Below are positions 2,182 to 10,280 of a DNA stretch of 64,000 bases, one piece after another. The stretch is from Peribacillus frigoritolerans. Lineage in GTDB: Bacteria > Bacillota > Bacilli > Bacillales > DSM-1321. The DNA is taken from positions 5,240,001 through 5,304,000 of the forward strand of contig NZ_CP158190.1 of NCBI RefSeq assembly GCF_040250305.1, in the 5' to 3' direction. The notes beneath the pieces are model-generated. The model saw only the letters and a list, made by a program, of their open reading frames with translations. It did not search any database and was not told the DNA's origin. How positions within the stretch are numbered: the first letter of the stretch is position 1; every line of letters starts with the position of its first letter. The position numbers and the translations under genes are program-made.

Positions 2182-2598
2182 TCAATAACGCTCCTCTATT
2201 ATGGTAATGATCGTTCAATGACAAAATTCATATAAGTAAGAAGAAACACACTTCTATTATTACTAATGCACGCTTAATTTTACCACTTCTATCATAGAGG
2301 TACAACTTCATGTCACTTCCCTGGTATAGACCTGAATTCAATTCTTGCGAAAAACAATGGATAAATGAGGAGTAAAACTGTTAAAATAGAAGGAAGTATA
2401 AAAAATATGTTGCAAATTCCCCACTATTCCATGTGCAAATGAGAATTATCCATAACCTTCCATCACTAGATGCTGTGTCCTCTCTAGCGATAGCATGTCA
2501 AGGTAATCCTACCTTACAGTCGTCTTGTTTGAATGATAAGATTGGCTACTGACACTTATTAGCGGAAGATAAATAGAACATGTTTCGAGGTGGTATTG
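2182..2598. other. Intergenic region between divergent secA and sinR
   Basis: This 417 bp stretch has no convincing ORF and must hold the divergent promoters of secA and sinR. A perfect 6-bp inverted repeat, AAGGTA-ATCC-TACCTT, lies at 2500-2515, about 85 bp before sinR, and could be an operator. I do not see an unambiguous SigA promoter pair. Confidence 0.5.
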
Positions 2599-2922
2599 AT
2601 GATTGGTGAACGTGTAAAAAAACTGCGAGAAGAAAAGAAAATGTCGATGACTGAACTTGCCGATAAAGCCGGTGTGGCAAAGTCTTATTTAAGTTCGCTC
2701 GAGCGGAACTTACAAACGAATCCTTCTATTCAATTTCTTGAAAAAATCTCCGCCGTACTTAACATTCCTGTTGATGCCCTGCTTTATGATGCACCAAATA
2801 AGGAAACCTTGGACACTGACTGGATGAAAATCGTTGAGGAAGCCATGAATTCGGGTGTTTCAAAACAACAATTCAGGGAATTTATCGAGTTTAATAAATG
2901 GAGAAAAGATAAAGAAGAGTAG
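2599..2922 (+). CDS. sinR: Master biofilm/motility regulator SinR
   Basis: SinR is a DNA-binding tetrameric repressor of matrix genes that switches cells between motility and biofilm and is antagonised by SinI. The 107-residue product has an N-terminal XRE helix-turn-helix (residues 5-60, including AGVAKSYLSSLERNLQTNPS, almost the B. subtilis sequence) and a C-terminal SinI-interaction segment (DWMKIVEEAMNSGVSKQQF). I chose the ATG at 2599 because AGGTGG precedes it at normal spacing; a GTG at 2590 overlaps that site. The sinI partner lies downstream on the opposite strand, not upstream in tandem as in B. subtilis. Confidence 0.95.
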   Translation: MIGERVKKLREEKKMSMTELADKAGVAKSYLSSLERNLQTNPSIQFLEKISAVLNIPVDALLYDAPNKETLDTDWMKIVEEAMNSGVSKQQFREFIEFNKWRKDKEE

Positions 2923-3071: not shown

Positions 3072-3212
3072 CTATTTTCCATTGTTCTCCTCTAATGTTA
3101 CCTCAAGGCTTTCCCGTTTCAAAAAAGCACTGATTTCCTCTTTTTTGAAACCCAAGCTCCTTGCTTCTGAAATCAATTTCACCCATTCTTGATCCATCTC
3201 CACATTAGCCAC
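3072..3212 (-). CDS. sinI: SinI antirepressor, 46 aa
   Basis: SinI-family peptides bind SinR and break its tetramer, relieving repression of matrix operons. The short frame encodes MDQEWVKLISEARSLGFKKE followed by EISAFLKRES, matching the Sin dimerisation helix pattern of B. subtilis SinI (DQEW, x-EI-x-x-F/Y-L). A GTG at 3212 follows AGGAGGT with normal spacing; an internal ATG at codon 6 is an alternative. It converges on sinR, an inverted arrangement relative to the tandem sinIR operon of B. subtilis. The upstream segment contains TGTCGTGG (3322-3329) and TTGTCGGA (complement of 3432-3439), degenerate Spo0A-like boxes. Confidence 0.85.
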   Translation of the reverse strand: MANVEMDQEWVKLISEARSLGFKKEEISAFLKRESLEVTLEENNGK

Positions 3213-3488
3213 CTCTTCTACCTCCTAAAATACTCTTTGTATTTCAGGCAGACCAGCCATCATAGTCTCGAGGACCTTAGACCTGTGCCTTTGCGCCCTC
3301 ATCTTTCAATAAGTTTGCCTTTGTCGTGGTATTTATTACCAAATACATTACTTATAATCATATTATAACGGATACCCACTCCATATATTGCTATTTTATG
3401 TCGGTAATCTACCTAAATGCAAAAACTTTTATCCGACAAAATATTACAATATTAAGAAAATTCAAATTCCAGGTGATTTTTCATAGAA

Positions 3489-7634: not shown

Positions 7635-7762
7635 GTTGATTTCCTCTCCAGGCACTCGCTTTCCGCGGGCGGTCCGGGAGCCTCCTCGGCGCTTTTGCGC
7701 CTGCGGGGTCTCCCTTGGACTCGCATTCCCGCAGGAGTCTCGCACCTTCCGTTCCAATCAAC
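7635..7762. repeat. Dispersed GC-rich Bacillaceae intergenic repeat, 128 bp
   Basis: The element is far richer in GC than its surroundings and is bounded by inverted ends GTTGATT (7635-7641) and AATCAAC (7756-7762). Internal blocks such as CTCGCTTTCCGCGGGCGGTC, GCGCTTTTGCGCC and GACTCGCATTCCCGCAGGAG give it strong folding potential. I recognise this type as an intergenic repeat found in many copies in Bacillaceae genomes; only one copy is in this window. It lies between the flaG promoter and the hag terminator and encodes nothing convincing. Confidence 0.75.
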
Positions 7763-8166: not shown

Positions 8167-8211
8167 TTAACGTAATAATTGAAGAACGCCTTGTGGTTGT
8201 TGGTTCGCTTG
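8167..8211 (-). CDS. hag: Flagellin exon 3 (C-terminus QANQQPQGVLQLLR)
   Basis: Fourteen codons plus TAA encode QANQQPQGVLQLLR, the textbook flagellin end, with no start codon of its own. It follows directly after the terminal G of group I intron 2, so it can only be translated from spliced RNA. The frame after joining to exon 2 is correct (AMLA/QAN). It differs from the copy encoded at the 5' end of intron 2 only at SA versus QQ. The hag terminator lies 60 nt downstream. Confidence 0.85.
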   Translation of the reverse strand, partial: QANQQPQGVLQLLR

Positions 8212-8581
8212 CTTTGCGACTATGTCTTTCGATCATAGAATAGACTATATCTTCATCCATGTTTTTCATGGAGCTGGGCACTTCGATCAGCTTATGCTGC
8301 CCTACGAGATTCATAGTCATAGCTTTCGCCTTAGACCGTATTCCCTAGTCGTTGAACCTTCTCCAGAGTTTCCTCTCAGGAGCTTGGCTGCTGATTATCC
8401 ATTGTTTCATCTCCATCATTTTCAGACCATCACGCTTACCGTTTCCAGTTACGTTGTGGTTGATAAGGCTTTAGGAAGTTCCAGCAATTCACCCAGTTAT
8501 ACTTTTATCCATTACTGGATAAAACGCCCTTCAAATTTACCTTAGAAGTTGTAAAACTCCTTGAGGTGCGGAATTTGCTTG
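8212..8581 (-). ncRNA. Group I self-splicing intron 2 in hag, 370 nt
   Basis: Core elements on the minus strand are P (GAATTGCTGGAA, complement of 8479-8490), Q (AATCAGCAGCCAAG, 8383-8396), R (GTTCAACGACTA, 8346-8357) and S (AAGATATAGTCTA, 8241-8253). P1 can form between exon 2 end GCU/C and GGGC in the intron, with the U-G wobble at the splice site, followed by CAAAUU/AAUUUG. P2 is UUATCC/GGATAA and P9 is CTATG/CATAG; the last base is G. There is no homing endonuclease ORF. The first 45 nt continue the flagellin frame as QANSAPQGVLQLLR then TAA, so unspliced RNA still encodes a complete C-terminus. Confidence 0.88.
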
Positions 8582-8650
8582 AGCCAACATTGCTTGTGCT
8601 GCTTGACTAAGAATAGAATTCTTAGTTTGGTTCATCATTTCTTTCGCCAT
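8582..8650 (-). CDS. hag: Flagellin exon 2
   Basis: Twenty-three codons encode MAKEMMNQTKNSILSQAAQA plus MLA, the conserved D0 C-terminal helix that packs in the filament core and is bound by FliS. Its boundaries were set by protein continuity (DVD/MAKEMM on the left, AMLA/QAN on the right), by the rule that a group I 5' splice site follows a U (exon 2 ends GCT), and by the terminal G of intron 1. Without splicing of intron 2 the frame reads on to a stop at 8537. Confidence 0.88.
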
Positions 8651-9017
8651 CGTGCGAACATTTACTTTCATAAATGACTAGACTATATCTTCACCCTCAA
8701 CATGATTTGTTAGGGGTCGGGCACTTCGGATTCACAATGCTGATGTACATTGTTTCACCTATGGATTTCATCACCTTGAGCTTAGCTTTTAGATGGTCTA
8801 TCCTAGTCGTTGAACCTTCTCCACTCTTTCGAGACAGGAGCTTGGCTGCTGATTGCCCAATCTTTTCTTTTTTCAAACCTTCACGCCTGTCGTTTCCAAC
8901 TACGTTGTGGCAAGAAAAGCTCTAAGGGGTTTCCAGCAATTCACCCGATAATAATCGCTAGCCGTTACCAGCTAGGACGACTGTGCTTGTCACTGTTTTT
9001 TAAGCAGCTAAAGCATA
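8651..9017 (-). ncRNA. Group I self-splicing intron 1 in hag, 367 nt
   Basis: Core elements on the minus strand are P (GAATTGCTGGAAA, complement of 8930-8942), Q (AATCAGCAGCCAAG, 8841-8854), R (GTTCAACGACTA, 8804-8815) and S (AAGATATAGTCTA, 8679-8691). P1 forms from exon GAU|UAUGCUU with AAGCACAGUC and places a U-G pair at the splice site. P2 is CTAGC/GCTAG, P9 is CATTTA/TAAATG, and the intron ends in G before ATGGCG. In unspliced RNA the frame reads YALAA then TAA, 18 nt into the intron, giving a flagellin that lacks the C-terminal D0 helix. It resembles intron 2 throughout the core, so the two are relatives, and it too lacks an ORF. Confidence 0.92.
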
Positions 9018-10280
9018 ATCTACGTCACGGATACGAGATTCCGCAGCAGTTAGGTTTTCAGATGAAGTTCCTAAGTTGTTGATTGTGTGCTCTAGACGGT
9101 TTTGGAAAGAACCAAGTTTTGATCGTTCAGCTGATACTTGTTTAATTGCTTCGTCTAACACTTTAACAGCGTCGTTAGCACCAGATTGTGTAGTTAAATT
9201 AATATCTTTAACCAAATCATTATTTGCTCTATCACCAAGAGTATTTGTACTGATTTCATTAATATCAACTGTCATATTTTGGTCTTTGTTAGCACCAATC
9301 TGTAAAGTAGCTCCACCACCAGCGATTGTGATTGTTGCTGTGCTAGTAGCTGTACCTTTTGCTACAAATTCTGCACCTTTAAAGCCAACTTCCTGGCCTA
9401 GACCTGTTACTTGTTGACTAGCGCTATTTGGTTCTACTATTGTAACAACTGCGTCAACACCTGCCGTTACAGCTCCACCAAATTCTGCAGCATCCGCTCC
9501 ACCTAATGTCATTTTATTCGAAGAACCAAATTTTGTTTGGTCTAGTTTAATATTTGCTTCGCCAGTATTAGTTGTAGTATCAACTGCAGCTTCCACACCA
9601 GTTACGTCTTTATATTCATTAATTTTATTCATGATATCTGTAGCAGTTGCAGACGTCATTCCAGAAAAGTCAATCTTTGTCCCATTAATAACTAATTCTT
9701 TTGTACTAACATCGCCAGCTGCTATAAAGTCACCAGTTCCAAGAGCTGCGCTAGCTTTTGTTGCAGCTGTATCAACAGTAACCGTGTATGCCCCAGGTGC
9801 TAATCCAGTAGCTGATGTAATATCAACATTAGCTTTAGCAGAAGAAGTACCTGAAACACCTAAACTACCATTTAATAATTTTTGCGTGTTAAATTCAGTT
9901 GTTTCTGAAATACGATTAATTTCGGATTTTAACTGTTCAACTTCTTTTTGAATTTCTTTTCTATCATCTAAAGTATTTGTGTCGTTAGATGATTGAACAG
10001 ATAATTCACGCATACGTTGAAGAATGTCATGAGTTTCGTTCAATGCACCTTCAGCAGTTTGGATCATCGAAATTCCATCTTGAGAGTTACGGGATGCTTG
10101 ATCAAGACCCCGAATCTGTCCACGCATTTTTTCAGAGATTGCAAGACCTGCAGCATCGTCCCCAGCTTTGTTAATACGCATACCTGAAGACAATTTCTCC
10201 ATTGATTTTGATTGGTTTGCAGAAGCACTTGATAACTGGCGATGAGTGTTTAACGCTGCGATATTGTGATTGATAATCAT
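9018..10280 (-). CDS. hag: Flagellin exon 1 (421 of 458 residues)
   Basis: Flagellin is the filament subunit, exported through the flagellar type III system. Exon 1 begins [20 protein letters not shown], the classical D0/D1 start. It has a large variable central region (about residues 145-345, rich in A, T, G) that is longer than in B. subtilis Hag, then the D1 C-terminal helix ([27 protein letters not shown]). The unspliced frame stops 5 codons later. AAGGAGG precedes the ATG. Joining exons 1-3 gives 458 residues in frame. Confidence 0.95.

Follow-up and report, generated by a model that had tools for sequence, protein, structure and literature searches.

The flagellin gene hag of Peribacillus frigoritolerans is interrupted near its 3' end by two group I introns, here called A and B, and each of them begins with codons that continue the reading frame of the preceding exon into a conserved protein end. 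In intron A this end is a tail of five residues that finishes in Ala-Ala. In intron B it is a complete copy of the flagellin C-terminus. We propose, with a probability of roughly three in four, that both introns render harmless whatever is translated from unspliced mRNA, A by means of a degron and B by completion of the protein. The DNA that was analysed, called the window below, is a stretch of 64,000 nucleotides of the forward strand of contig NZ_CP158190.1 (assembly GCF_040250305.1, positions 5,240,001 to 5,304,000).

Two group I introns near the end of hag

The hag gene occupies the minus strand from 10280 to 8167 of the window, and its parts are listed in Table 1. An earlier sequence-only reading of the window had placed two group I introns in the gene, with the same lengths and at the same codons. 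Both a covariance search with the Rfam model RF00028 and a comparison with the hag genes of relatives bear this out. The model matches the minus strand at 9011-8659 for intron A (E 2.2e-22) and at 8555-8220 for intron B (E 3.4e-19), over model positions 1-253 in both cases and with scores above the gathering score of 50. At E <= 0.001, the 5.6 Mb genome contains no RF00028 match besides these two.

The borders of the introns were placed by comparison with uninterrupted relatives, in which precise empty sites were found. Intron A is inserted at a GAT/ATG junction (between DVD and MAKEMM) and intron B at a GCT/CAA junction (between AMLA and QAN), 14 codons before the gene end. The uninterrupted A site reads RDVDMAKEMM or RDTDMAKTMM in relatives, including those at loci L010 and L017. 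The uninterrupted B site, AMLA-QANQQPQGVLQLLR, was found in 30 of 50 genes that have no B intron, and the remaining genes carry close variants of it. The edges of the Rfam model were considered as splice sites and rejected: the relatives put the 5' sites upstream and the 3' sites downstream of these edges. At the borders set by the relatives, U precedes each intron and the last intron nucleotide is G. The terminal G had been read correctly from the sequence, as had the U-G pair at each 5' splice site, which is formed by GAU/GUC in A and by GCU/GGC in B.

With both introns removed, the protein covers positions 2-86 of the 86 of Pfam Flagellin_C, compared with 2-53 only for the unspliced product. 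From the fold and the borders we infer that these two group I introns excise from the hag mRNA. The description of the introns as ORF-less holds in so far as they carry no ORF of a known family. Neither A nor B contains a homing endonuclease gene, which would mark a mobile group I intron, and of the three ORFs of at least 60 codons that lie within the introns or extend across them, none reaches the cut-off of any Pfam family.

Two further observations concern the surroundings of the gene. A c-di-GMP-I riboswitch (71 bits) lies at 3244-3329 of the window on the minus strand, 31 nt upstream of a 46-codon ORF (3072-3212, minus strand) that we take by eye to be SinI antirepressor-like; a convergent ORF (2590-2922, plus strand) is presumably SinR-like, judged in the same way. 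If the riboswitch does act on sinI, two biofilm switches would be joined. The intergenic stretch at 7640-7760 is GC-rich and has the look of a repeat element; a segment of 40 bases taken from it is present in the window in a single copy.

Table 1 Features of the interrupted hag gene (window positions) and loci of the genus with adjoining tmRNA and group I matches (genome:contig:positions)
Feature	Position	Strand	Basis or remark
hag exon 1, N-terminus to ...SRIRDVD	9018..10280	-	ORF 9000-10280; Pfam Flagellin_N and start of Flagellin_C
Group I intron A, 367 nt	8651..9017	-	RF00028, 92.2 bits; borders from relatives
Intron A 5' end in the frame of exon 1, YALAA then TAA	9000..9017	-	degron-like tail if unspliced
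Intron A internal guide GUC, opposite exon GAU	8979..8981	-	U-G at splice site
hag exon 2, MAKEMMNQTKNSILSQAAQAMLA, 69 nt	8582..8650	-	border comparison
Group I intron B, 370 nt	8212..8581	-	RF00028, 81.6 bits; borders from relatives
Copy of the flagellin C-terminus at the 5' end of intron B, in frame with exon 2, QANSAPQGVLQLLR and stop	8537..8581	-	read if B is unspliced
Intron B internal guide GGC, opposite exon GCU	8526..8528	-	
hag exon 3, QANQQPQGVLQLLR and stop, C-terminus of the spliced product	8167..8211	-	
tmRNA/group I loci	G005:C23:97365-97971; G003:C1:4304776-4305387; G002:C1:6766-7377; G035:C3:212271-212878		

Distribution and kinship of flagellin introns

A group I match is present in 19 of 36 genomes of the genus. 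A DNA query with intron A, which also catches B introns, found matches in at least 169 of 397 genomes of the order, belonging to at least 71 of 135 genera. Among genomes drawn from wider groups, the RF00028 model matches in 72 of 299 of the class and in 36 of 398 of the phylum.

The reading frames were analysed in 112 introns at site A and 104 at site B, all of them distinct and those of the window included. This sampling is non-random, as the introns are the best matches of each search, and they are related by descent, so that the counts given below are not independent of one another. The antisense locus L143 was left out of the A list, and L178 (SWWWKSILS) was left out as well. Five rows without an intron, from L022, L128 (two), L336 and L408, were left out of the B set, and the B list was filtered of genes counted twice in other frames. 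Loci of the phylum set that lie at contig ends (L267, L281, L282, L287) are outside the readings.

The sequence-only reading held the tandem pair to be exceptional, and this part of it fails. Among the relatives collected, a B intron lies in the same hag gene for 45 of the 112 A introns and none was found for the other 67 (a count for which a list of 112 distinct A introns was drawn up separately), which rules out the pair as unique. In a genome of the same species (G024, L017), the hag copy that was fetched carries a B intron and is uninterrupted at the A site. Judged by these sequences, the A+B pair is frequent and patchy and no singular accident.

We built a tree of the cores of 78 introns, rooted on a non-flagellin intron. 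The nine non-flagellin introns in it are those of 18 chosen loci that have the core motif. The 69 flagellin introns form one clade against these nine, with a support of 0.70, in keeping with the earlier view that A and B are related. A-site and B-site introns are intermixed within this clade. Because the flagellin introns form a single clade with the two sites intermixed, they have probably moved between sites of the gene; the spread within the gene that had been suggested earlier fits this pattern, at the support just given.

Neighbouring hag genes that each carry their own A intron were seen at L128 (at least three) and at L126 (at least two), where introns and hag genes seem to duplicate together. 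At L254 the B-site flagellin intron is 1073 nt long, almost threefold the usual length, and may hold an ORF.

The tail of the unspliced product of intron A

What the earlier account of two related introns at these codons overlooked is the tails that the introns encode. When exon 1 is read into intron A, five intron-coded residues, YALAA, are followed by a stop. The final residue of this unspliced product is Ala in 110 of the 112 A introns. The endings are Ala-Ala in 104, VA in five and TA in one, the other two being AV and AS. The commonest tail is YALAA itself (60 introns), followed by YAEAA (9), YVLAA (5), YALVA (4), YTEAA (4) and others. The other two frames of the same introns have Ala before the first stop in 3 of 215 cases, and 2 of the 41 ORFs of at least 150 codons in the window end in Ala. 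Over all loci, 190 of 1063 end in Ala, but the flagellin introns are part of this background and raise it.

The tails use all four types of Ala codon and all three types of stop codon. On the intron tree, 47 changes were inferred in the last codon and 45 of them are synonymous; the figures for the penultimate codon are 16 of 22, and all 13 changes inferred in the stop codon lead to another stop. The third-last codon is free, with 5 of 25 changes synonymous. Tails with an extra codon keep the AA end (YDLIAA and YDLAAA, three each, and YALAAA, YVLAAA and YVLTAA), and it is also kept in one tail where the usual stop is read as Ser (YALAASAA).

A C-terminal Ala-Ala about five residues past the folded part defines an ssrA-type C-degron in the sections of PMC7652416 that we drew on. 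By this sequence criterion, the YALAA of the window and the tails of 104 of the 112 A introns are candidate ssrA-type degrons. According to the same sections, ClpP together with an E. coli ClpX from which the N domain is missing robustly degrades GFP-YALAA but not GFP-LAA, and the final Ala-Ala is the most important element of the degron. ClpXP of B. subtilis also recognises poly-Ala tails, as stated in an excerpt of PMC8138137. The third-last residue is E, Q or T in 17 of the 112 A tails, a caveat on the strength of the degron. Both clpX and tmRNA are present in the host genome.

The tail is not an exact copy of the host tmRNA tag, which ends in AFAA at all 15 loci scanned in the 36 genomes of the genus. 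Two observations on tmRNA genes stand apart from this. L033 has two of them about 1.1 kb apart that encode an identical tag peptide. In at least four genomes of the genus (G005, G003, G002 and G035; Table 1), a tmRNA match of lower score lies directly beside a weak match to a group I intron, and these loci look like an intron in the tmRNA gene.

A copy of the C-terminus in intron B

When exon 2 is read into intron B, the result is QANSAPQGVLQLLR and a stop, which is a complete flagellin end. Such a complete copy is kept in 99 of the 104 B introns. Over these 99 introns the dN/dS of the copy is 0.089, and 0.027 for its last seven codons, to be compared with 0.064 for the true exon and with 0.80 and 4.39 for the two shifted frames. 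The copy is under purifying selection that is about as strong as in the true exon. Three of the five exceptions have degron-like ends (QFEQIAA, QFEQVA and QLLVA). The other two, L159 with its copy out of frame and L160 with an immediate stop, fit neither the degron nor the spare-end design.

The proposed fate of the unspliced product

Transcription and translation are coupled in bacteria, and ribosomes follow closely behind RNA polymerase. Exon 1 of hag would be translated before intron A is complete or folded. Because ribosomes would reach the border between exon and intron before the intron has been made and has folded, each transcript would also be read unspliced. These ribosomes, along with those on RNA that fails to splice, would terminate inside the intron.

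The resulting product of intron A would keep the N-terminal part of flagellin and lack the end of the C-terminal helix, and such a truncated flagellin might disturb export or assembly. Since YALAA has the sequence of a degron of the ssrA type, this shortened flagellin would be expected to fall to ClpXP or to a protease like it. The diverged, functional copy of the codons in intron B would yield complete flagellin from spliced and unspliced mRNA alike. The two designs would thus serve one purpose, namely that no harmful product arises from unspliced mRNA. If splicing were conditional, intron A would in addition tie the supply of flagellin to splicing, without a stable by-product.

Alternative explanations

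The introns could act as a conditional switch. The efficiency of splicing, set by temperature, GTP or growth state, would then determine the output of flagellin, with A as the off state and B neutral. This idea is compatible with the explanation above, to which it adds regulation, and we regard it as possible but doubtful. Flagellin introns of thermophiles splice in a temperature-dependent manner and may regulate flagellin, as far as the consulted part of PMC4853749 goes, and a degron would give unspliced A a clean off state. However, B seems made to leave the product of the very same gene unchanged, the patchy presence in relatives suggests a tolerated element, and the sequence gives no reading of condition dependence.

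It is unlikely that A and B are simply ordinary group I introns, in which an early stop does no more than keep ribosomes off the ribozyme and Ala-Ala comes about incidentally through the hairpin of the P1 extension. In-frame stops are indeed viewed, in the passages of PMC3984707 that we used, as a sign that ribosome stalling aids folding. In intron A, moreover, the 5' end pairs with nucleotides just upstream of the internal guide, and this P1 extension covaries over the 112 introns. The pair at intron nucleotide 4 is G-C in 95, G-U in 8 and A-U in 8 introns; at nucleotide 5 it is C-G in 94, A-U in 9 and U-G in 5; at nucleotide 6 it is U-A in 78 and C-G in 25. Nucleotide 2 forms an A.C mismatch in 107 of 112. 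Because this hairpin overlaps the last two Ala codons, their conservation may be due in part to RNA structure.

Yet structure is probably not the whole answer, because Ala ends recur where the stems are different. A third flagellin site, C, lies just upstream of B and was found in eight more distant genomes drawn from the phylum. Its tails are EEIAA, EGIAA (twice), EVRWAA, EGLAA, ERMAA, EVLAA and EAPAA, i.e., AA in 8 of 8, with stems and preceding residues that differ from those of A. The last Ala codon falls in the hairpin loop in all five of the site C introns that were folded. The three B introns without the copy that have degron-like ends argue in the same direction, since their short tails also end in AA or VA on other stems. 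Moreover, the AA of intron A survives extra codons or an altered stop, an Ala end is rare in the other frames, and the intact coding copy in B would be left unexplained by a structural by-product.

There is very little probability that the copy in B has stayed similar to the exon through recent duplication or gene conversion rather than through use. The two peptides are similar, but the DNA of the copy is 57-81% identical (mean 68%) to that of its own exon and the peptide is identical in 0 of 99 introns. The last residue is nevertheless the same in copy and exon in 97 of 99 (R/R in 87, Q/Q in 5, G/G in 5). Diverged DNA with a shared last residue argues for the use of both ends and against recent duplication.

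Least probable of all is that the two introns act as a pair that joins exon 1 to exon 3 in a third flagellin isoform without exon 2: the 69 nt of exon 2 would keep the frame and the introns are related, but 23 conserved residues of the C-terminal helix would be removed, the guides differ (GUC in A, GGC in B), and no B was found in the same gene for 67 of the 112 A introns.

Relation to known systems

Group I introns in flagellin genes are described for Geobacillus stearothermophilus and thermophiles related to it (Hayakawa and Ishizuka 2009, 2012, according to parts of PMC3984707 and PMC4853749), and the sequence-only reading had rightly pointed to such an intron in a thermophilic species of the Bacillaceae. 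Those introns are likewise group I introns of a Gram-positive host, and they are reported to be self-splicing, of subgroup IA2 and temperature dependent. The introns studied here differ from them, as they are told of in the same parts of the two papers, in that there are two per gene and that they encode tails with a likely protein fate. The group I introns of bacterial recA and nrdE and of phage genes, mentioned in the consulted part of PMC3984707, have the RF00028 fold in common with ours.

Tagging by tmRNA (ssrA) and alanine tailing by RqcH also put an Ala-rich tag on the C-terminus of an incomplete protein, and this tag is read by ClpXP, according to excerpts of PMC7652416 and PMC8138137. 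In contrast, the tag proposed here would come from the intron itself, in cis, and ordinary translation and termination would suffice to attach it, with no ribosome rescue. Some integrating elements rebuild the 3' end of the gene into which they insert. These and the IStrons, for which alternative splicing is described (PMC4853749, in part), resemble the flagellin introns as inserted elements with a limited or varied effect on the host gene. The copy in intron B differs from both in that it is part of a ribozyme intron, where it precedes the internal guide, and would serve unspliced mRNA only.

Among the matches listed by our literature search, in which subscription literature was thinly covered, no paper joins group I introns with degrons or spare flagellin ends. 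Within the same scope, degrons or spare protein ends encoded by bacterial group I introns are likewise not the subject of any paper. As far as this search went, the intron-coded tails are an undescribed feature, and one that is directly testable.

Introns of other genes and significance of the finding

The non-flagellin sample comprises 44 of 77 rows, each with at least 100 open codons upstream; some of these 44 are endonuclease-like frames rather than host exons, and related sites recur among them. By their look, the host genes include ribonucleotide reductase and phage tape-measure proteins. Twelve of the 44 end in Ala, eight of these in AA or VA, whereas 104 of the 112 flagellin A introns end in AA; ten rows end at once in GGSR and a stop. 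Unspliced ends of introns in genes that look like these two kinds are RVA (L030), RLA (L258), KVA (L027 and L209), NVA (L247), NAA (L248), LVA (L243), YAA (L223) and QAA (L227). Such Ala-ending tails suggest that the rule may reach past flagellin, which we take as a lead and no result. Put generally, the first codons of group I introns in bacterial protein genes may be selected to encode a ClpXP-type degron or, near the gene end, a spare C-terminus, so that retention of the intron would be a proteolysis switch. We put this forward tentatively, as an idea with a serious chance of being right and a somewhat greater one of being wrong.

How self-splicing introns survive in highly expressed genes that are translated co-transcriptionally is an open question, to which the usual answer is the early stop codon. 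The sequence evidence points to selection on the peptide that precedes this stop, which at two flagellin sites would amount to a minimal degron and at the third to a spare protein end. If the general idea above is true, motility would, in the case of flagellin, be tied to ribozyme splicing. The proposed explanation would link intron splicing to proteolysis in bacteria. The explanation also predicts protein isoforms that automatic annotation may take for truncated flagellins.
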